The notes below the pieces were generated by a model. That model had not been told where the DNA came from, did no database searches, and saw only the letters and a program-made list of their open reading frames with translations. The position numbers and the translations under genes are program-made. DNA of 64,000 nt. Origin: Paramacrobiotus metropolitanus (lineage: Eukaryota > Tardigrada > Eutardigrada > Parachela > Macrobiotidae). Shown piece after piece: positions 23,601 through 60,714 of this stretch. The stretch is taken from NCBI RefSeq assembly GCF_019649055.1, contig NW_026570273.1:620001-684000 (forward strand), read 5' to 3'. Each line of letters starts with the position of its first letter. Positions within the stretch are counted from its first letter, which is position 1.

Positions 23601-24167
23601 TTAGCTATCAGGACAGCCGACGCGACTCTTGACAAATTCCGCTTCACCCAGCACACCATCGCCATTTGTATCCATCATGCGGAACAGCTGCTTAACTCGA
23701 CTTCCTGCCGCTGCAGGATTTTGTGCCGTTGCCACTTTTGGTGACTGCAGCTGGTCCATGACTTCTTGCACCGTCTGCAAAACGTTCTCCATCGTAATTC
23801 GCCCAAACGTTAATCGCAGAACATTACATGATATTTCTGCCAGCATGTAAATTTGTTTAAAGCAGGAACATACTGGTGAACGATCCGGATGCCGCTTCGC
23901 TAAGGGAAAATTGCGAACCGACTGATAATTGCATTCATTTCCGGTTTTGCAGTACTGCACGGTCCCGGCCTGCATATGTCCAGTGGATCGATGCCGAGAC
24001 GAGAAAGACCGAATGTGGTCAAAGGGGTCTCCCTGGTCGGGATCAAGTGGCGCAAGTTTGTCACTATCATCACAGACGCCGATTGAGTCCGCTGCGCCGG
24101 GAATATTTTTGCAGGACACTGGTCCACAACCACGCCATACTTTTGGAACGCTTCTATCGTTTTCCGT
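23601..24167 (-). CDS. LU half-domain joined to an EF-hand exon (5' incomplete)
   Basis: Exon 24167-23874 starts in phase 0 after GTTTTAG and encodes the second LU half: VWRGCGPVSCKNIPG, IGVCDDSDK, GTVQYCKTGNECNYQS. A 99-nt intron (GTATGT..TTTTGCAG) leads in phase 0 to exon 23774-23601: TVQEVMDQLQSPKVATAQN.., VKQLFRMMDTNGDGVLGEAE, FVKSRVGCPDS, stop. The loop DTNGDGVLGEAE has Asp1, Asn3, Asp5, Gly6, Leu8 and Glu12, a canonical calcium-binding EF-hand. The paralogue at 29845-30428 has the same exon order and phase. The signal peptide and first LU half were not found upstream. A secreted or cell-surface calcium-binding LU protein is inferred. Confidence 0.7.
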   Translation of the reverse strand, partial: TENDRSVPKVWRGCGPVSCKNIPGAADSIGVCDDSDKLAPLDPDQGDPFDHIRSFSSRHRSTGHMQAGTVQYCKTGNECNYQSVRNFPLAKRHPDRSPVCSCFKQIYMLAEISCNVLRLTFGRITMENVLQTVQEVMDQLQSPKVATAQNPAAAGSRVKQLFRMMDTNGDGVLGEAEFVKSRVGCPDS

Positions 24168-24307
24168 CTAAAACATTTAACGACAATGAGCTCCATAAAG
24201 AGAATTCAGAGATAACTATGCCACTGGCTGACCAATAATGAACGAGCTGACCAATAATAACAAAGATAGGTTTGATTTTCTAGAAGCATTTCCGGTTAAT
24301 TAAAGAT

Positions 24308-24785
24308 TTAGGCGTCTGCCAAACGCGCAATTTATCCATGTTGCGTTAACAAATGTTGAATGCCTTTGGGTGATCCAGTCGAATTCAGGAGGACGTCCGA
24401 ACGAAAACACATTTCGTCAGACACTTTGCTGCTAATTTAGCCAAACAGTTCCAAGAAACCGTCCACCTGATTTTTTCGCCGAAAATGCCCGCTTTGAGTT
24501 GGCAAGATTTACGCCGAGTTTTTATTGACGAGTGGCCGGTTTAACGGCAAAAGCGTCCGAACAGTATATCCAGTTACAAAGGGCTCACCAGCGCCAACCT
24601 AAAGTGCTTTCCAAATTTTTACGGCTTATGGGTTGGACTTGCTGCTTTACAATCGCCGAACGGTTTTGCTGGCCTAACAACCAACCGTCTGGTAAACGCT
24701 TCATTCGTTCAGACGTCCTCCAGATTTGACTGGATTATCTGGAGTCGTTTCACGTTTGTTATTGCGCAGTTTGGCGTTCGCTTAA
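24308..24785. mobile_element. Foldback element with imperfect inverted arms
   Basis: The left arm (from TTAGGCGTCTGCCAAACGCGC through AGGAGGACGTCCGAACG) and the right arm (complement of GGAGGACGTCTGAACG back to AACGCCAAACTGCGC) are inverted copies of about 130 bp with indels. No coding sequence is recognised. It is probably a non-autonomous DNA element. Confidence 0.55.
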
Positions 24786-25011
24786 ATCCGCTTAAATTGA
24801 ATTAAAAGAAAAACGGGTCTGGATGTAACGTTTGTCGTTTACATACAAAAACATAGGTGTGACAATATTTCGATGCGCACGCATTGTCATCGGATCGGGC
24901 CCTGTCGTCAGTGGGTACCAGAATGCCGCATGAACCATTAACAGCACCTCAGCAATTGACGCAGAAGTGGGGCGTATATTCCTCAGTGGCTACTGCAATT
25001 TACATTAAACT

Positions 25012-27963
25012 TTAAAGTGATGTAATTCGTGAGACGAACTTTGCCGTAACTGACCATCTGCATCTGTTCGTACTATCTGTATGCCGAAAAAAGAAACACG
25101 TACGCTCGGCATTCACCGCGAAATGTGTGGCGGCTCTGTTGCAGCGGTCGGTGTCGCAGTACTGCAGGCGGCCAGTCCCATTCAGAACCTGACTGACCAA
25201 GGTATACAGCTGATTAAACGGCGGCCCAGAGGGGACTGGCACGCTTTTGTCATTCCAGAACCCTTCCCAGCGGTCGTCCGCGTCACATAGCACTGAAACA
25301 TTGCCTCTATATGTCAGCAAGGAGCAAGGTTTTCGACCACAACCCCGTTTCACTCTAAGTTCTAAAAGGAATAGCGAGACATTTGAAGCCGTGACGTCAA
25401 TTGCCGAGGGTTCTGTTGTGTGTTCCATAATATACCCACCCACCTTTGCGCACAAATATTTGGCTCTGCAAATACAAAAGTTTTTACGGGAGTTCCTTAT
25501 CGCTAGTTGTCGGTGATTGCAGTATTCCTCTAAAACTACTTACATATTCGTTTGTATAGCAGAATCCATCCGGACAGGGCTTCGCAGTGCTTTCCAGATC
25601 GGACACATTCCAACCAGCACCCAATCCACATGCCATGCCGGCATGATTGTCACAATGGTAACAAGAGATGGTCGCTGCGCTCGATGCTGAATTTAGATAG
25701 AGCACCGTTTAAACAATGATTTGTTAGGTTGATTAATTCAGAAGTTTCTTTTTCCTTCAAGCAGTTGTATTTTAACATGGAATCCATTGCGAGAAATTAT
25801 ATTTGTCGCGGTGCAGTAGGCATCCTTTAGCACGCACCCGTTTTTAGGCTTCAAGACCGTACAGATGGATAAACCTTTTCGGCGATATACTGGTTTGTAA
25901 AATACCAACTTTTATAGCTACTTCGAAAATCTTTTGTGCACATTGGTTCTGTCTGTTTTCGGAGTGTATGGGTATGGGTTCATTAGAAAGCTCATAAATC
26001 GCGCTTTTTAATAGACAGAGTTTCAAAATCAACACTAATAGCATAATCGCCTTAGAAATTTTTCTGTTGTGTAAGCCCTAGAAAAATCTTAGCCAAGAAC
26101 CAGATGGAACATCTTCAGGTCTGATGTTTTCAAATGGAACTAAAATTATTTTACACGCTGGGCTTATTCGAAAAAAATCTTGAATGAAAAGCTAGGAGGA
26201 TACACATTTTTGAACATGGAACTAATTCTTCTTATCGAGAAAACCACTGAGCGTTGGAGTTCGAATGTCTGTATTAGAGCGCTAAATGCTTGCTTCACGC
26301 TCGCTCGCGGTAGTTTAACTTTCGCAAAATTTTTCTCAGCTCGCTCGTGCTAGCTCGTTTGCTCGCTCGCTCGGCTCGTTTCGGCATGTCTCACTGCTCA
26401 GATCGCTCGGCTCGTAAACCGAATCAGTTTTTCTGCTCATTTAACTCGGAAGCAAACTAATAAAAAATTATTGCATTTTTAATTTTTAAATTTTCATTCA
26501 GATAAAGTAGTCTTTACCAACGCAGGTATTTTTGTCATGTGGACATAGCAAGTATTGTCAGTTTTCATATCCTGAATGTATCCCATTTTATCGGTTTCGA
26601 TAACTGAGATGCTCTACAGTCGCAACTCTGACTGGCAGACGCAAGGGTATTATTAATTTATACGGAAACAAACCCAGATCGGTGCATACCAACGGACAAC
26701 AGCGTATCGAGATGGGGCAAAACTAATGGGTACTTTTTGCAGAGATTGTTCAAGGCCACGATTTTCGGTTAGGTATACATTGATCGATGCTGCAGAGTGA
26801 CTAGTAGCGTCACCAAGTATGTGGCAGATTTTGCCGAGTAGTGCAGTTTTTCAAGGGCCGTAACAAAAGTACTGCTCAGCTCGCTCGCCCTCCCAGAGCG
26901 CCGCTCGCTCGGCTCACTCGTTGGTCAATAACCAACAACTCGGCTCGGCTCGTGAAAAAACTGACAATACAGACAGTGGTTCGCTCATTCGGCTCGTGAG
27001 CGGCGAGCGCTCGCGCAGGGCTCTAGTCTATATCGCAAAACCAAGAAAATCCAGTGTGTAGAATAATGTTTTCTTTCCAATGGTACCAAAAACGGCCAAT
27101 TCCATTGCGGCAGTGGAATGCAATACGCGTAAAACTGTCCGAACTTTATTTCCAGTAAATCAGGGTTTTCGTGTTTTGGGAAATGGAATGGTCCGCTGCA
27201 TCGGTGGACCAGTTTGAGCAGACAACCACGCTACCTGCAGGCTGCGTAAGGCGTTCATGAAATCGCCGCCTGCGCACGGCTGCAGCGGTACGCAGACACG
27301 CAGCCCGCGTGCGGTTGGGTATACTTCGATTGAAACTGTGATGGCAGCTACGTGAATCGAACCGTGCTGCTGCACCCCTGCGTCATTTTGGACCCGCGGT
27401 ACCTTTTCGTTTTAGACAGATTTGGGTTTTTGTTCTGTTCTTTGCTTCTCAAAAGATCTCTCATTTTAAAGAGAATTTTTTTCTGTTCTAGAAAATATAC
27501 TCGTAGTTACTGTAACTTCTGTGGGGATGAAGCAAGACCAGTCTATCGCCTTAATAAAACACAGCCGTCGTAAATATTGCCTGAAGCACTTTTTTACAGC
27601 TGCTAGTGCATTCAACAGCTGACGGCTTTGTCGAACTGAAAACTAAAAGTTTTCAGTTTTAGTTTCCTTTTATACTAGAAATCTGGTACAAAACTGTAGC
27701 GATGTCTGCCATGCTTTACGCACGTGATGATACTTCGGCAAAAACATCAAATTATCAAAGCATTTAAAAAGTAACGAAACACGTAAGCTTTACATAATCG
27801 ATAGCTTTGTGGTCATTATGTATGGTAGTTTAAGCAATGTGGTTGAACAGGTTAACGGAAGAGTTAGAAATATGTGATAGATTTGACGGCTACTTCTATA
27901 CATACCTGTAGCGGTAAGTGTGCCCAAGGAGAAGACGATTGCAATACTCCATAACTGCTCCAT
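25012..27963 (-). CDS. Ly6/uPAR-like (LU) protein, F type, with 22-nt microexon
   Basis: Exon 1 (27963-27906) encodes the signal peptide MEQLWSIAIVFSLGTLTAT, phase 1. Exon 2 (25686-25544) encodes ISCYHCDNHAGMACGLGAGW..KPCPDGFCYTNEY, phase 0. A 22-nt microexon (25465-25444, SQIFVRK) lies between TTTGCAG and GTGGGT. Exon 4 (25361-25012) encodes VKRGCGRKPCSLLTYRG..VLCDADD..GRLQYCDTDRCNRAATHF and runs to TAA. All phases agree and give 190 residues with ten framework cysteines. A GTACGT at the codon after NAE could be a donor to an unlocated last exon. The 2.2-kb first intron contains the hAT-like element. No GPI tail is visible, so it is secreted or anchored through a missing exon. Confidence 0.75.
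26275..27025. mobile_element. hAT-like non-autonomous element rich in GCTCGCTCGG
   Basis: The left end reads TAGAGCGCTAAATGC and the right end, read inward on the other strand, TAGAGCCCTGCGCGAG. It is flanked by near-identical 8-bp repeats, GTCTGTAT (26267-26274) and GTCTATAT (27026-27033), as expected for hAT insertion. Sub-terminal regions are packed with GCTCG repeats (26283-26410 and 26870-27015). There is no transposase frame. It interrupts the first intron of the LU-F gene. Confidence 0.6.
27160..27375 (-). other. Unassigned GC-rich open stretch inside the LU-F intron
   Basis: A 71-codon minus-strand frame (AAITVSIEVYPTARGLRVCV.., LRSLQVAWLSAQTGPP) stands out by base composition from the AT-rich intron. 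I see no domain and no convincing splice borders. It may be an exon remnant of an unrelated gene. Confidence 0.25.
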
Positions 27964-28697
27964 TTCTATGACCCTAATGGGAAAAAACGGTTTCTGGAGT
28001 TGTGAAAAGGAAAAGAAAAAAGCTTTAAAAGCCGTCTGTCGCATCATGTACTACTCCAGTGTATTGTATGTATGCTGTGCAGCAGGCAACTTTGGAAAAT
28101 GCGGCCTTGTGTTCACTGTCAACGTTTCAAAATGCTAGATTCTGATGTACTGAGTGATAGCATCGCAAACGCGATCGACTGATAAAGGCAATAAACAAAC
28201 GTCGTCCACTTTGTGGTTGCATACTGCATGACTTATAAAAGCCTAACTTATAAAAGCCTAACTGACTAAAAAGAGCTAAGCTCTTTTCATAATTTTCACA
28301 GCGCTGTACATAGACCATCCTCACTGGACAGATAGAAGCGCCACGAAAAATGAATCAGCTTCTTCTCATAATTCGTCGGGTAGTTTTCTCCGCCAGCTTT
28401 CATAGGTATCGAAAACGTCATCAAATTTTTCATAGATCTTTCCAGTTTTTATTAATAATTTAAGTGTTCAGCAACGATGCGCAAACCACCGCGTATTTAA
28501 GTTATGATGGAAGCATTACTAATGCTAGCAGGTTACCCTACCATTAGTTATTCTTTCTGGTGTGCCTAGTGGGTGTAGTAAGTGTCTCAAAATTTGTTTG
28601 CTGTACAGTAATGCAGTATTACGGCACCTGAATGATCGATAGCGATGACTAAAGTGTGACAGCAAAGACAACGGTTTATTCGTTCCTTTCCTTTCAG
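27964..28697. other. Divergent intergenic region between the two LU-F copies
   Basis: This lies between the start of the minus-strand LU-F gene and the plus-strand LU-F pseudogene. The duplicated phrase ACTTATAAAAGCCTA occurs twice at about 28231-28263. No signal-peptide exon for the plus copy could be fixed. Confidence 0.4.
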
Positions 28698-29340
28698 CAA
28701 CCAACGCAGCAACTGTTCCGTGCTACCACTGTAAAAACCACGCCGGTATGGCCTTGTGGACAAACGACCGGCTGGAAGGTTTCCGATCTGGAGAACAGTG
28801 CAAAACACTGCCCGGACGGATTCTGCTACACCTATGAAGACGTAAGTTCCGTTCTCACATTGCCTAACGGCCTACTCCAGTACAAATATACCATCACCGA
28901 CCAAGAGCCGACCAAGAGCTGTCGTAAGTCGTTTTGTTGCAGAGTGGAACATATGTGCAAAAAAGTGCGTGGCCTTATTTCTGTATTCCTTATAAAACAG
29001 AATATGGAGTAATTTTCTCGAAATTTGGAATCTGACCTTTTGTCCGTAACGCGCTTGTTATTCCCGGTAGAATTCCGAGTGAAACGGGGTTGTGGTCAGT
29101 TTCCCTGCAACGATTATTAAGGAAATTTAAATGCTTCGGCACTATGTGACGTCGGCAGCGACGGCTTCTGGGCAGACAAGGAAATCCCTCTCCCGTTGGA
29201 ACCGCCATTCAAGTGGCTGTACTCCTCATTGTCGGGGTGGTAGTCCTGAATCGGACCGGTCGCCTGCAATACTGCGATTCCGACCGCAGTAACAAGGCCG
29301 CCACGCATTTTGCGGTGGATGCTGAACATAAGACGGACGG
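28698..29340 (+). pseudogene. Ly6/uPAR-like (LU) F-type pseudogene
   Basis: Exon 2 starts at 28698 after CTTTCAG: ATVPCYHCKNHAGMA, then a 1-nt insertion near 28754, then CGQTTGWKVSDLENSAKHCP, DGFCYTYED, ending at GTAAGT. The 22-nt microexon is kept at 28943-28964 (SGTYVQK) before GTGCGT. The last exon (from about 29072) reads FRVKRGCGQFPCNDY and then TAA, and the final GRLQYCDSDRSNKAATHF lies in another frame, with the last framework Cys replaced by Ser. It is the inverted copy of the intact gene at 25012-27963. Confidence 0.75.
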
Positions 29341-29521
29341 CGGACATCTTATTGCTCCATTTTTATCAGGACAATGTTTTAGCTGCAAAATAAATAATAA
29401 TCTTTTCGGCGGATTGCAGTATCCCCTGAAGCAGGTGCACCCTTATGCTGCGCCAACTGCAGCGGTCCGGTAAATGGATTTCCTGAAACCATTTCCCGTT
29501 TTTAACTGAAACGTTCACCAG

Positions 29522-29690
29522 ATGTCTTGCGTCGAAATGTCGCAAAGGTTAAATGTCTCAAAGCAGTATGTCCCAAATCAAATGTCCCAGCGACTAGATG
29601 TCCCGCGGCGAGAAGTCGTGCGTCGAATTTGGGTGCGGCGAAATGTCACACTCCCCACATGTCCGGGTGCGACGTTACGTGCGCAAATTG
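29522..29690 (+). repeat. Degenerate AAATGTC..GCGGCG repeat, copy 1
   Basis: Units such as AAATGTCCCAGCGACTAG, GTCGAAATGTCGC and GCGGCGAAATGTCACAC recur at roughly 17-20 nt spacing. The stretch AGTCGTGCGTCGAATTTG is shared with 54750-54775, where it lies on the other strand. Confidence 0.65.
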
Positions 29691-29844
29691 TACAGCAAAA
29701 ACTACAATGCGTCTTTCTAATTTTAAATCCGTTGCGTGCTATTGCTCGTAAGTCAAGAAACAGCAACCGAGACACCTATTTCTTCTGCTAGTGAGCTGTG
29801 TTTAAGAACTTTTATTTTCTTATGTTTCCTCATGTTGGTTATAG

Positions 29845-30428
29845 ATGTGAAATCAGGTTAGGCGAATTCCAACGGGATGCCACAAGCCCATCGCTGATGC
29901 GGCAACGCAGATTGCAAGTACTTTAGCGGAAAATATCATGCTGATAATTGCGATGAAAGTGGCCAATGAAGACCTGGAAATGCCACTGATAAAGAACCGT
30001 TCAATGTCACTCGCGCGTTCTACGGTGTTATGAACGGCAAGAGAACAAGCATCACGGTTCAGTACTGTCGCAACGGTAATGGCTGTAACCAGGGGCCAAT
30101 TGGCGATCTCCATTTCAAAGACCAGCTTTCAGGCGACCACGAACTAGTACGAGAAATCGGGCAAAGAATGCATGAGTGATTTTGTTCGCTAAAGTTATAT
30201 TAATTTTTAATGTGGCGTCCTTTACAGACTATGCAACAGCTGCTACATGTATTTAACACAACGAGAAATATGGCGAGATTCCGGCTGTCACAGGCGCAGG
30301 CCTCCGCCAAGGATATGTTCGAAAGGATGGACAACAATGGCGATGGTCTGCTGAACCAACAGGAGTATCTGAATTGCAAATACAATCCAGAATTGATAGA
30401 ACGCGAGGATGTAATCCACGTGTGCTGA
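29845..30428 (+). pseudogene. LU plus EF-hand pseudogene, mirror copy of 23601-24167
   Basis: The LU half reads CGNADCKYFSGKYHADNCDE, NVTRAFYGVMNGKRTSITV, QYCRNGNGCNQGPIGD in one frame, but with TGA codons at 29895-29897 and 29967-29969. A GTACGA donor near 30147 allows phase-0 splicing to exon 30228-30428, after TTTACAG, which is intact: TMQQLLHVFNTTRNMARF.., AKDMFERMDNNGDGLLNQQE, YLNCKYNPELIEREDVIHVC. The loop DNNGDGLLNQQE is a canonical EF-hand. The intact EF exon beside a broken LU exon is notable. Confidence 0.7.
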
Positions 30429-43800: not shown

Positions 43801-46671
43801 ATGGAGTGGGTGTTTACTGCAGTTTCTTTAATATGTTCTTTGCTAATTATTCCAGGTAAGGTCGTTAACGCGTACGTTACACTTACGCATGGGAAAAACC
43901 GTTTTGCGTTTATTGCATGATGCGGTAATAAAATGTATCGAAAATTCTCAGATAAATAGTGCTAAAAGCTAAAATGTTTGACCCTAGTAATGTAGGTCGC
44001 GCCGTCTTGATGACCGCTGCTGAAAAACTGTGCTACAGTAGACTTCCGCAAAGTCATCATTAACCGAATATTTCTCTAATAAAGATACAGTATAATCCCC
44101 ATGCAAAGATATTTTGGCGTCAGGGTATCGAATTGACCGTACCGCATTGATTTCCCAGGAGAATATACTGTAAAAATAGAAGCAACTAACAGTAAAATAA
44201 CTTCGCATATTTTTATATAAAATCTGTAGTAAAGTTTTTAGCAGACAGTTCACAAATAAATTTAAATAGTTTTAAGCCTAAAATACGCGTAAGCTTCATA
44301 ATGTATGCGGCGGTTTCAGCCTTTTATACAAGTTGCAATTGGGAAAAAAACTTTCTGGAAAGTTGATGACTTCTTAGTTCTTATTAAAGAGATATGGATT
44401 ATGGCAACGTGGTTTAAAAAAAGCAGATACAACATGGAGCACTTTAGCGTTTCAGATTTTATGAGATCGAATTGGCTTTTCACGGTTTTGACAGTTTCTT
44501 TTTTAAAATATAAGACTTAGTCTTGATTTATTCGTCAAATTCATGATGCTGACAATAAATATTTTCCTTTAATTGGCTATGTTCAATTCATAATCAATGA
44601 CTCAATGGCCACGATTATTCAGCGCAACGAGTGGATGATTGACAAGTTTGCCCAAAATAGAGGAAACCGTACGAGGAACTTGTGAAAAAATTAGGCGGGC
44701 TACAGATACTCGTACAATACATTCCGCACAACCAATTAGGCAGGCGGACGAGTTGCCAGTTACAACAGTGTTGTGCTGACTCAGCCCCGGCGCTGGGTGG
44801 TCGGCAAAGTGGCTGCCAGCATCAGTGTAACATGTAACGCACTAGCGTGGTCAGCTGTTGAACTTGAGCGCCTTATCGTATTATTGCAGCACATGGCGCC
44901 ACAGGTACTACCGTCTGTTATTCCTGTGAAAGCGTCGCCGGTCTGGCGTGTGGACTGAGTCGAGGATGGACGGCGTCCTACCTAGAGGCCAACACACAAC
45001 TGTGTCCTGAGGGAGTATGCTACACATATGTCAAGGTACGTTCGTTTAATTGTGAACTGTTGTTACCGGCGGTAATGCGTTCCCACGTATCAAAGCGCGT
45101 GGGAATCCGAACTGACGGTTCCCTAAAACTGGCTGGATATTGCGTAACGAGCAACAATGGGACCGATCTAGGTGATTGGTATTTGGTCGTTCCCTTGCAC
45201 AGAGACCCTACTCGTATGGTCGTTTAAGTGAAACACTATGGTAAGTGAATGGGCGATGGTCATTTAAGTGAAACACCCGAAATAACATTTTCCACAAACC
45301 GATTTTCTTTTGGATTTTTTCCTCTTCCGATTAAACGGGATGTACCCTTTACAGAGCACTTGAAATTTTTAAAAAAGCTTTAGCCGTTTTCTTGCAAATG
45401 AGACGTAACGAAATCAGTGACGAAAGCGCTTTAGCCACGCCACGAGTGCCACTGCACTACGCTCAAATATTTGCAGTCACCGCCATTCATGGGTGGCTGT
45501 ACCATCGCGGTGTAAGATGTCTATTGAGGCCAAAACTAATACAGTTTCAAGACACCAACTTCAAACAAACGAAGAAAAAAATTCAATTGAACATAAATTT
45601 ACCTGAACTGAATTAACAGCCCCCCATAAATGGCGGTGACTGCAAATATTTGAGCGTAGTGCAGTGGCACTCGTGGCGTGGCTAAAGCGCTTTCGTCACT
45701 GATTTCGTTACGTCTCATTTGCAAGAAAACGGCTAAAGCTTTTTTAAAAATTTCAAGTGCTCTGTAAAGGGTACATCCCGTTTAATCGGAAGAGGAAAAA
45801 ATCCAAAAGAAAATCGGTTTGTGGAAAATGTTATTTCGGGCGTTTCACTTAAACGACCATCGCCCATTCACTTACCATAGTGTTTCACTTAAACGACCAT
45901 ACGGGTAGGTTTTTAGAGCTTTACTATGTTTGGCGTTCGCGGTAAAGCCGAGACGGGTGTGTCAGTTTTGAGTCTACCAACTTGTTCAAGTCTGATTTTT
46001 TTCGGCAGATTTAAATGTGCTGCACTCATTACAAACGCAGCCGAAAGTCTTTTAAAAGGCGCCAAAATTTGGTTTTCGATTATCAGTTTTGGAAACCAAC
46101 TGCGTTTTATTATTAAGGATCCGCATAAATAAACAGTTGTTAAGCTGAAAAATTTTTTGACTGTGTTGAAAAATTGGATCTAAAGAAATCTGCATACAGA
46201 ATATGGACATAAAGCCAGAACGAATTATAATAAACTAATTTGAATATTTTGGTTTTGCAGACTGCCCCCAGCAAGTGTAAGTGCCGCCTGGAAGCACTTA
46301 TCAAGTTTTGCGTACTTGCTAAACATTCTTTATTGATTTATTTCACAGCTCCGATGGTGTACCGAGGCTGCGGTCAGTTGACATGTGATGCCCTGCCCGC
46401 CGGCTACAACACCTCCGACGTCTGCGAGAAGGACGCCGCCGGAGTACTGCGCGTGAAGAAGGTCGCCGCGTCCGAAGGGATCTTCAACCAATCGCGCACC
46501 TACAACTCGCAGCCGCCCAATCGGGACTTTGTCACCAGTACACTGCAGTACTGTGATTTCGACCGCTGCAATAATGGCGCCGTACAGTTCGTACAGCAAG
46601 ATCTACAAGGTAAACTAACAGTGAACGCTTACAGTACTTCGCAATGTTACAGTATTTACAAGATACGTTAA
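43801..46671 (+). CDS. Ly6/uPAR-like (LU) protein, B type, with 16-nt microexon
   Basis: Exon 1 (43801-43855) encodes the signal peptide MEWVFTAVSLICSLLIIP, phase 1. Exon 2 (44890-45035) encodes TTVCYSCESVAGLACGLSRG, WTASYL..TQLCPEGVCYTYVK, phase 0. The microexon (46261-46276, ACTGCCCCCAGCAAGT) lies between TTTTGCAG and GTAAGT. Exon 4 starts at 46349 and encodes PMVYRGCGQLTCDALPAGYN, VCEKDAAGVL, LQYCDFDRCNNGAVQFVQQD. It can read through to a stop at 46671 (179 residues) or leave at GTAAAC after 46609, where the paralogue at 14440 also has a GT. A last exon, possibly with a GPI signal, was not located. Ten framework cysteines are present. Intron 2 carries a TA-flanked MITE. Confidence 0.75.
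45211..45905. mobile_element. MITE with about 290-bp terminal inverted repeats, TA flanked
   Basis: The left end CTCGTATGGTCGTTTAAG and the right end (inward) CCCGTATGGTCGTTTAAG differ at one base, and complementarity continues almost perfectly for about 290 bp on each side (to about 45501 and from about 45615). The spacer is about 113 nt. TA dinucleotides at 45209-45210 and 45906-45907 fit a Tc1/mariner-type target, although CCTA/TAGG also matches across the flanks. There is no transposase. The high arm identity implies a young insertion. Confidence 0.8.
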
Positions 46672-58744: not shown

Positions 58745-60714
58745 ATGGCGTGGATATGGATTGCGTTACTGTTGGTTTCCACCGCCGGTGCAGGTCTGTA
58801 AAATTAGTGATAGAAGTGGCAAAATGTAGTTTCTTTAAAAAATGAATGGATTTACAGAAATTTTGTTACAGCGTCGAATTATCAGGAATTAAAAAATATA
58901 TATGGCAATGTACATATGTAGAATATTTATAACCGTTTTTACAAGGCGTTCTCAATACAATATTACAAGGCGTTCTCATATACTATAATACAATACAATA
59001 CAAGGCGTTCTCATATACTATAATTACGTGCGCGCGTTGAGAACTATAATGATTGTGTTGCATTTGACATAGCATGGTGCGAACCTTGATACGAATTTTG
59101 TTATTGAATTTTGATGAATTCAGTTTCAAATTTTTTGTGCCAGAAATAATTTCTTAAATTTGGTTTGTCCAACTACGTACTTTTTCATAGGAACACTGCA
59201 TAAATAAGAAACTGTACTCTGTACAAACAATATAACCTGGAAACTGCACCCACAGATCGATTGTTAATACTTAATTGTTAGAAGTGTATTATAAACGTTG
59301 ATTTTTCTGTTCGTGCCAATCTCCTTTTACGTATTAACGCACATTAGTCATCGGCATTTAAGTAAGTACTATCAAATTGTTTATAATTGTACTGCATCGT
59401 TACAAAAGCATTTTCAATAAATATTGCAGGACTGGCTGATACGATAACGTGTTATAACTGCAACGGTACGGTGGAGCAAGCCGGCACAGCCGGAACTGCC
59501 TGCGGCTGGTACAAAGGCTGGACGTCGTCCAATCTGGACAAGCGGACCGGCGTCATTTGTCCCGATGGAATCTGCTACACTCTCATGATTGTACGCTCAC
59601 AACTGCAGTATTTGGCCATGTGTTTATTTGTTTACACACTCCATAACGGCATAACTGTTATTCCCATTTTATTCTTCAGTTCAATATTTATATTTTATTC
59701 CATTTTAGGGAGGCACTGGTCAAGGTACGAGCTTGTGGAGGTGAAAACGACCCCGAAGGACAAACTGCCATCACCCTACAGCGTGCTCATAGTTATTTAT
59801 AATTTGCCGTGATAATTAAAATTATTAATAATTTGATTATACAAGTAATTAATCTGTTTATATATTTGGTTTACCATAGTATTTGAATAATAATATTTGT
59901 TAGTGTAATTATTATTAAAATTTTATCCATAATGATAAAAATGTATCTGTCAATTATTAGATGGATTCTAAAATAATTAATAATTAGTGTGGCTATTCGA
60001 ATAATCCCTTACACTGCGAGGAATAAACTGCAGTAATAATAATGGGAAACTGGAAATATAATCTTAATTTTCATATCTGGGTGCTGTGTAGTGGCGACTA
60101 TATACCGCGGCTGTGGCCAGGTGACCTGCGATAAGCTGCCGCGCGGCTGGGAGAAACAGGAAGCTGTTTGTGATAGCGCTACGAACAAGGTCAAGCCGCC
60201 GCCCGCCAACGAGAAACTGAACGACATCCGCCTGTTCCAAGCCAGCCTGCCCGGCAATGTCAGCGTCACCAACCTGCAGTACTGTGACACGGACTGGTGC
60301 GGGACGGGCGGCGAGCAGATTGTCCAGCGCTACACCACAGCGCTAGCGGCCGCCGCCGCGCCACCGGCGACACCAGCGCCGCCACCCCCTCCAGCCGTGG
60401 TCCCAGTGGTGGTGCCGCCACCAACCAATGTCGTTACCACCAATAACGTCGCCGGGACAGGGGACCAGGCGGGGACGTCGAATCAGCCGGCGAATGGGGC
60501 CGTCGTGGTACCGGTTATAACGAACGGTACCGTAGAAATTGCTTTGAAATAATATTATTACGCGGTATACGATAACTCCGATTGCGTTGCAGGCGGTGGG
60601 CAGACACCCGCGCCGGTGGATACCTCCAAAGTGGCCGCCGGGAACGCGGTCAGTGCGGGAGCCGTCTCCACGGGAACGGATAATAATCAGCCGGCTGCCG
60701 GTACATTGCAATAA
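58745..60714 (+). CDS. Ly6/uPAR-like (LU) protein, C type, with 16-nt microexon and Pro/Ala tail
   Basis: Exon 1 (58745-58793) encodes the signal peptide MAWIWIALLLVSTAGA, phase 1. Exon 2 (59430-59590) encodes ADTITCYNCNGTVEQAGTAG, TACGWYKGWTSSNLDK, ICPDGICYTLMI, phase 0. The microexon GGAGGCACTGGTCAAG (59709-59724, residues GGTGQ) lies between TTTTAG and GTACGA. Exon 4 (60092-60526) encodes ATIYRGCGQVTCDKLPRGW, EAVCDSA, LQYCDTDWCGTGGEQ, then a low-complexity Ala/Pro/Val/Thr tail. A 66-nt intron leads to exon 5 (60593-60714), GGQTPAPVDTSKVAAGNAVS.. to stop. Phases sum to 260 residues. The tail looks mucin-like (many Thr, Pro) and has no GPI signal, so a secreted or O-glycosylated form is inferred. 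The mirror copy at 19480-20608 is dead. Confidence 0.8.
58930..59025. repeat. Short tandem repeat in LU-C intron 1
   Basis: Units like ACAAGGCGTTCTCATATACT recur about three times, with AATACAATACA filler. This is a local minisatellite. Confidence 0.7.

Follow-up and report, generated by a model that had tools for sequence, protein, structure and literature searches.

A tardigrade family of two-LU-domain genes with a terminal EF-hand exon, probably captured from an NCS gene

We analysed a window of 64,000 nucleotides (nt) from the tardigrade Paramacrobiotus metropolitanus (C53:620001-684000), which carries two inverted copies of a gene that joins LU (Ly6/uPAR) domains to a terminal exon encoding an EF-hand. 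Computation brought out a recurrent gene structure, a family of such loci across the genome, purifying selection on the EF-hand exon and a relation of this exon to the last exons of neuronal calcium sensor (NCS) genes. We consider the family to be chimeric: an LU gene probably took up an NCS last exon and was then duplicated. Our confidence in this is fairly strong, because the EF exon recurs behind the second half-exon of the second LU domain at nine loci, three of these copies are intact, and the EF exon is both constrained and NCS-like.

Coordinates are given in window numbering unless prefixed by a contig (C53, C9, C2, C41 or C443), and a single genome of 169.8 Mb in 533 contigs was searched. 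Exon borders and splicing were deduced from sequence, with junctions compared across copies. The minus-strand copy of the window, termed the focal copy, was modelled as a seven-exon gene encoding a signal peptide (exon SP), two ten-cysteine LU domains of the QVR type and, in phase 0, the EF exon (Table 1). Exons H1a and H2a, joined by a microexon, form LU domain 1, and H1b and H2b form LU domain 2. The minus-strand open reading frame (ORF) at 23601-24167 is open over 188 residues and contains an LU half together with the EF loop DTNGDGVLGEAE. A first-pass annotation of the window had placed a 12-residue EF loop (DTNGDGVLGEAE in the minus copy and DNNGDGLLNQQE in the plus copy) directly after the second LU half in both paralogues, with a short intron and phase 0 at the join. 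The exon was found in those places, and the intron of the minus copy is of the GT-AG type with phase 0 on both sides. Pfam EF-hand_1 matched both ORFs (E 3.7e-5 and 8.6e-5), below its curated cut-off. That annotation had also assumed one LU domain per protein; there are two, encoded with the help of upstream exons SP, H1a, the microexon, H2a and H1b (27963-24847), which it had missed. A single-LU gene composed of two half-exons and the EF exon was rejected, since the H1a donor is in phase 0 and the H2a acceptor in phase 1. This mismatch pointed to the 22-nt microexon and subsequently to the second LU domain.

H1b of the focal copy carries an in-frame TGA, which the first-pass annotation had missed. 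This codon follows CVNC, at a position occupied by Arg or Lys in the four other aligned copies. The product of the gene as assembled would comprise a signal peptide and a single LU domain, and skipping of H1b would break the frame, as H2a ends in phase 1 and H2b starts in phase 0. Because the remaining exons still look constrained, the stop probably arose recently or reflects an error, and the focal copy has probably been disabled only recently. An AATAAA lies 48 nt past the stop of its EF exon, and AATAAA or ATTAAA was present within 400 nt in five of six copies.

A genome search with the EF exon (matches kept at E up to 10) returned 11 matches. Nine of these follow closely downstream of a same-strand match to H2b, repeating the exon order of the window, and they define nine LU-EF loci, of which C53 has six and C9 three (L001-L007 besides the two window copies; L009-L014 denote further loci). 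The other two are the last exons of NCS genes (C53:483208-483426 and C2:3210975-3211205). Three loci are open from ATG to stop over all seven exons, namely L001 (C53:601559-603562, 362 residues), L002 (C53:607151-609374, 358 residues) and L003 (C9:1357032-1359401, 352 residues); their phases are identical, and each has the 22-nt microexon and two LU domains followed by the EF exon. Six copies in total could be modelled in the order SP-H1a-microexon-H2a-H1b-H2b-EF with like phases and a microexon of 22 nt in all six, except that H1b and H2b of L004 were not placed; H1b is open there, and by eye no phase-0 acceptor was found before H2b. A signal-peptide-like exon, that is, a hydrophobic ATG exon with a phase-1 donor, was detected by hydropathy upstream of six of the eight copies scanned, and the same scan found none upstream of L007 or of the plus copy of the window. 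Pfam QVR (PF17064, cut-off 27.3 bits) was passed by L002 (30.3 bits) and L003 (28.9 bits) and failed by L001 (24.8 bits), whose translation by eye has 10 cysteines in each LU domain. A TAG seen in the raw EF matches of the three C9 copies was rejected as a stop codon, as it belongs to the splice acceptor itself.

A tree of H2b bears on the number of capture events; it included eight EF-bearing halves (L006 was left out) and six rows labelled as EF-less paralogues of the type with a glycosylphosphatidylinositol (GPI) anchor, a hydrophobic tail being present in two of the six. Seven of the eight EF-bearing halves form one clade (support 82/83). Across the labelled rows, a single change suffices to explain the EF label in 85% of bootstrap trees. 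The H2b of the plus copy falls outside this clade and groups with the window locus at 11.9 kb (100/99, with long branches), so that a single capture is not proven. A repeated capture of the EF exon, with the plus copy as a separate event, is conceivable, if unlikely: besides the tree placing, the EF exon of the plus copy is about equally close to the C53 NCS exon (E 0.087) and to the focal exon (E 0.35), and retains more sequence past the loop. Against such a second event, the H1a and H2a pieces of the plus copy share 72-85% DNA identity with the focal copy, a single label change suffices, and long branches and pseudogene decay can explain where the plus copy falls. The plus copy is a degenerate pseudogene. 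The first-pass annotation had correctly noted two stops in its H2b and an open EF exon; the decay, which it had confined to the LU part it saw, extends over most of the length. Since the first half resembles the focal copy but H2b groups with the 11.9 kb locus, the plus copy may be composite.

We then compared the EF exon with other EF-hands. A profile of the LU-EF exons scored 43.8 bits against the C53 NCS last exon and 38.3 bits against that on C2, at least 18 bits above the best of 20 control EF-hand loci (20.3 bits), which were mostly top-scoring stretches chosen from 58 EF-hand_7 genome matches. In the PDB, hippocalcin-like protein 1 ranked first for the single EF exon (E 8.8e-9) and for a six-row profile (3e-12), its fourth EF-hand scoring best; these values sum several EF-hands per chain, and the fourth alone gave an i-Evalue of 0.033. 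Both NCS last exons begin with AIQEM after a phase-0 acceptor, and the LU-EF exons begin with TVQEV or TVQQV after an acceptor of the same phase; the NCS exon aligns with the focal exon from the second residue of the latter. In the C53 NCS gene a first exon (MGGKNSK...) and a last exon can be recognised. The distance from the latter to the closest EF-bearing H2b (C53:521506), which has the same orientation, is 38 kb. At the LU-EF loci no significant match was obtained with NCS exon 1 or the EF3 exon, the two other NCS exons compared. Taken together, these comparisons point with good confidence to an NCS gene as the donor of the EF exon, and suggest that the C53 NCS gene itself could be that donor. 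Upstream of this gene, an ORF resembling LDL-receptor class A repeats was seen by eye (L014 83-559, C53:472582-473058).

Derivation from another EF-hand family, such as calmodulin or a secreted EF-hand protein, with the NCS likeness due to convergence, appears improbable. The sequence is short, the PDB matches include calmodulin-type chains with weaker E-values, the single-domain value for the fourth EF-hand is modest, and the controls are a part of the EF-hand_7 matches. Such an origin would nevertheless have to account for the score gap to all 20 controls, for NCS proteins ranking first with both sequence and profile, and for an exon start and phase common to both genes.

Evolutionary constraint was estimated from the ratio of nonsynonymous to synonymous substitution (dN/dS), as the first-pass annotation had proposed for the EF exon. 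Six EF-exon sequences were compared in 15 pairs, the disabled L006, L007 and plus copy being left out. The ratio was 0.16-0.38 in nine of the pairs (0.38 for the focal copy against L001, 0.16 for L003 against L004), and synonymous saturation left the remaining six without a ratio. Pooling two independent pairs gave 0.36 (bootstrap 0.21-0.65; Fisher p 1.4e-4), and an alternative pooling 0.26 (0.13-0.45). The EF exon thus evolves under purifying selection. For the LU exons, dN/dS ranged from 0.05 to 0.75 over the pairs with a ratio. The coordinating residues D1, N3, D5 and E12 of the loop are kept in all seven open aligned EF exons, that of the plus copy included. The EF-hand is unpaired: each modelled copy encodes one loop in its terminal exon.

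Several observations weigh against the chimeric origin or the function that it implies. All splicing is predicted from one genome, and six of the nine LU-EF loci, including both window copies, are either disabled or incompletely modelled in this assembly: H2a of L005 is frameshifted by 1 nt, and there are several defects in each of L006, L007 and the plus copy. In the disabled L006 one coordinating residue is changed, and in the disabled L007 an insertion alters the loop spacing. Three assembled proteins scored 21.4-24.2 bits with EF-hand_1 (E about 2e-5 to 2e-4), under the 25.4-bit cut-off. The AlphaFold model of the EF exon, made from two window sequences, was poor (predicted local distance difference test score 65.5), and Foldseek returned a single meaningless match (E 8.9). 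As to the NCS link, the agreement at the exon start amounts to about five residues plus phase, and profile-profile support covers 27 columns, the EF-hand itself, with no conservation of the linker.

The losses could be taken to mean that the whole family consists of decaying pseudogenes and that the architecture is a dead relic, and a frameshifted H2b on C41 (L012) would fit such decay. This is highly improbable, given three loci on two contigs that are intact over seven exons, microexon included, and dN/dS values below one for EF and LU exons in every pair with a ratio. At the C41 locus, an EF-like start (VLDNLKPS) was also seen by eye downstream of H2b.

We give very little weight to the reading that the EF exon is a gene of its own, or part of an unrelated transcript, and lies beside LU half-exons by chance: the H2b-EF join is predicted from sequence, the focal EF exon and H2b lie in a single open frame, with an ATG ahead of the exon inside the intron, but neighbour, order, phase and a GT-AG intron of 77-124 nt recur at the five loci modelled over both exons, that intron has in-frame stops in four of the five (only the focal copy is open), and a conserved acceptor stands directly before TVQEV without a conserved start codon. 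An EF exon starting after the in-frame ATG of the focal intron was rejected, as the compared copies share the acceptor before TVQEV/TVQQV.

Table 1. Features of the two LU-EF copies of the window, in window coordinates. For the plus copy, the borders of H1a, the microexon, H2a, the H1b remnant and H2b were read by eye.
Copy	Feature	Position	Strand	Phase	Remark
Minus	SP, first coding exon	27906..27963	-	phase-1 end	MEQLWSIAIVFSLGTLTAT + 1 nt; donor gtatgt
Minus	H1a, LU domain 1 first half	25544..25686	-	1 to 0	CYHC...CYT
Minus	Microexon, 22 nt	25444..25465	-	0 to 1	SQIFVRK; puts H1a and H2a back in frame
Minus	H2a, LU domain 1 second half	25104..25361	-	1 to 1	RGCG...QYCDTDRCN
Minus	H1b, LU domain 2 first half	24847..24992	-	1 to 0	In-frame TGA
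Minus	H2b, LU domain 2 second half	23874..24167	-	0 to 0	
Minus	H2b-EF intron, 99 nt	23775..23873	-	0 on both sides	GT-AG
Minus	EF exon, terminal coding exon	23601..23774	-	phase-0 start	TVQEV...DTNGDGVLGEAEFVKSRVGCPDS stop
Plus	H1a	28698..28841	+		Frameshifted
Plus	Microexon, 22 nt	28943..28964	+		Open; from intron sequence
Plus	H2a	29071..29327	+		Stop and frameshift; donor GT lost
Plus	H1b remnant	29420..29500	+		CANCSGPVNG; end approximate, most of exon gone
Plus	H2b	29862..30146	+		Two in-frame stops
Plus	EF exon	30228..30428	+		Open; TMQQL...DNNGDGLLNQQEYLNCKYNPELIEREDVIHVC stop; loop DNNGDGLLNQQE

Intron 1 of the focal copy measures 2219 nt, compared with 440-558 nt in the five other modelled copies, and is rich in GCTCG repeats at 26280-27020. 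Its H1b-H2b intron contains an element with inverted terminal repeats (24347-24761), and a piece 80% similar to this element lies on C443 (L013). The C443 locus was rejected as a sister copy, since it has an SP-like piece, the inserted element and a truncated H2b beside the exons of an EF-less gene.

The window as a whole is an LU/QVR gene cluster, with paralogues at 11.5-12.1, 14.4-15.5, 18.6-20.6, 44.9-49.7 and 59.4-62.3 kb; stops occur in some of them (at 11.9 kb and in the H1 half at 20.5 kb). The EF-less paralogues at 44.9-49.7 and 59.4-62.3 kb on the plus strand have H1a, H2a, H1b and H2b with matching phases where these were checked. H2b is the last exon in both, and its FPLKNYYYL runs into a hydrophobic C-terminus, near the position at which L002 splices away to the EF exon (FPLKNLYQHRTP). 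By eye, these tails are candidate GPI signals, and the capture may have replaced such a lipid anchor. We compared the C-termini of eight EF-less H2b halves, and the results make such a replacement less certain. A hydrophobic tail was found in only two of them, which leaves an anchor swap no better than plausible. Three others (window 18.6 kb minus, L009 4.6 kb and L010 3.1 kb) terminate 8-10 residues from where the final CN pair begins, and three (L011, L009 1.2 kb and window 11.9 kb) extend 29-32 residues without a hydrophobic stretch. As three LU paralogues stop almost at the last cysteine, the C-termini of the cluster are of several kinds. Reading through the H2b-EF intron of LU-EF copies gave no hydrophobic tail in the five examined by eye. 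A divergent half resembling H2b (CGGSIPC) lies at L009 1199-1438 (C53:611.2 kb). After it come FPLKFVRYFPTK and a GT, roughly where the LU-EF copies have their donor; genome searches with the EF exon gave no match at this locus.

Candidate 16-nt microexons fit between the LU half-exons of two EF-less neighbours (59709-59724 and 46261-46276, plus strand), so the microexon probably predates the capture of the EF exon, and very small exons within LU domains may be a general feature of the cluster.

On the chimeric origin that we favour, a local two-domain LU gene of the QVR type would have gained a splice donor just past its second LU domain. This new donor would have been joined in phase 0 to an NCS last exon, which contributes the tail of the exiting helix of EF3 together with EF4, and the chimera would then have been duplicated. 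Signal-peptide-like exons and kept coordinating residues suggest an extracellular, calcium-responsive product: a secreted, non-anchored protein with two three-finger domains and one canonical calcium-binding loop at the C-terminus. A lone EF-hand might bind calcium weakly at millimolar extracellular levels, and could pair with itself, dimerising the LU ectodomain, or dock on a partner. A bolder version, in which the GPI anchor of a Quiver-type protein was swapped for an NCS last exon from the same chromosome region, giving a new family of secreted calcium-dependent two-LU proteins in which calcium switches monomer and dimer through intermolecular EF-hand pairing, is speculative and, on balance, doubtful.

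The family shares with the QVR (Quiver-sleepless) LU proteins of PF17064 a signal-peptide-like exon, a ten-cysteine domain split over exons, the RGC motif, the CN end and clustering of genes. It differs from them in its two LU domains, the microexon in the first, the C-terminal EF-hand and the lack of a hydrophobic tail; the C-terminal GPI signal, common if not universal in QVR proteins, is absent from the LU-EF copies, which splice to the EF exon instead. The hydrophobic-tailed window paralogues are alike in H1a, candidate microexon, H2a, H1b and H2b, whereas they end with H2b and have no EF exon. NCS proteins are cytosolic. With the hippocalcin/neurocalcin group of that family, the LU-EF genes share a last exon made of the end of the EF3 helix and EF4, its phase-0 start and a DGxLDExEF-like loop. 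They share only this exon: NCS exon 1 and the EF3 exon, which were those tested, are missing, neither the four EF-hands nor the N-terminal myristoylation site is present, and the EF exon stands behind a signal peptide.

According to the part of PMC6600238 consulted here, LU domains are mostly single or self-repeated and probably not bona fide mobile modules, and few proteins are named in which an LU domain stands in a foreign context. The same part describes GPIHBP1 and SP-10 as LU genes with a foreign exon added; theirs is a disordered N-terminal exon, unlike the C-terminal calcium-binding exon of the LU-EF genes. The first-pass annotation had regarded the combination as undescribed, and in the parts of open-licence PubMed Central (PMC) papers covered by our search no description of an LU/Ly6 protein with an EF-hand or calcium-binding architecture was found, nor, in open-licence PMC papers, one of NCS genes with exon shuffling; the P. 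metropolitanus transcriptome paper PMC11191345 contained none of the six LU or calcium terms looked for. The architecture recurs, constraint acts on its exons, and LU-EF is a new domain combination from known parts. The genome that carries it also contains a likely donor family, the join preserves phase, related EF-less genes survive as neighbours and selection on the new exon is measurable; this makes the birth of a chimeric gene directly testable, as well as the acquisition by a cell-surface-type protein of what may be a calcium switch.

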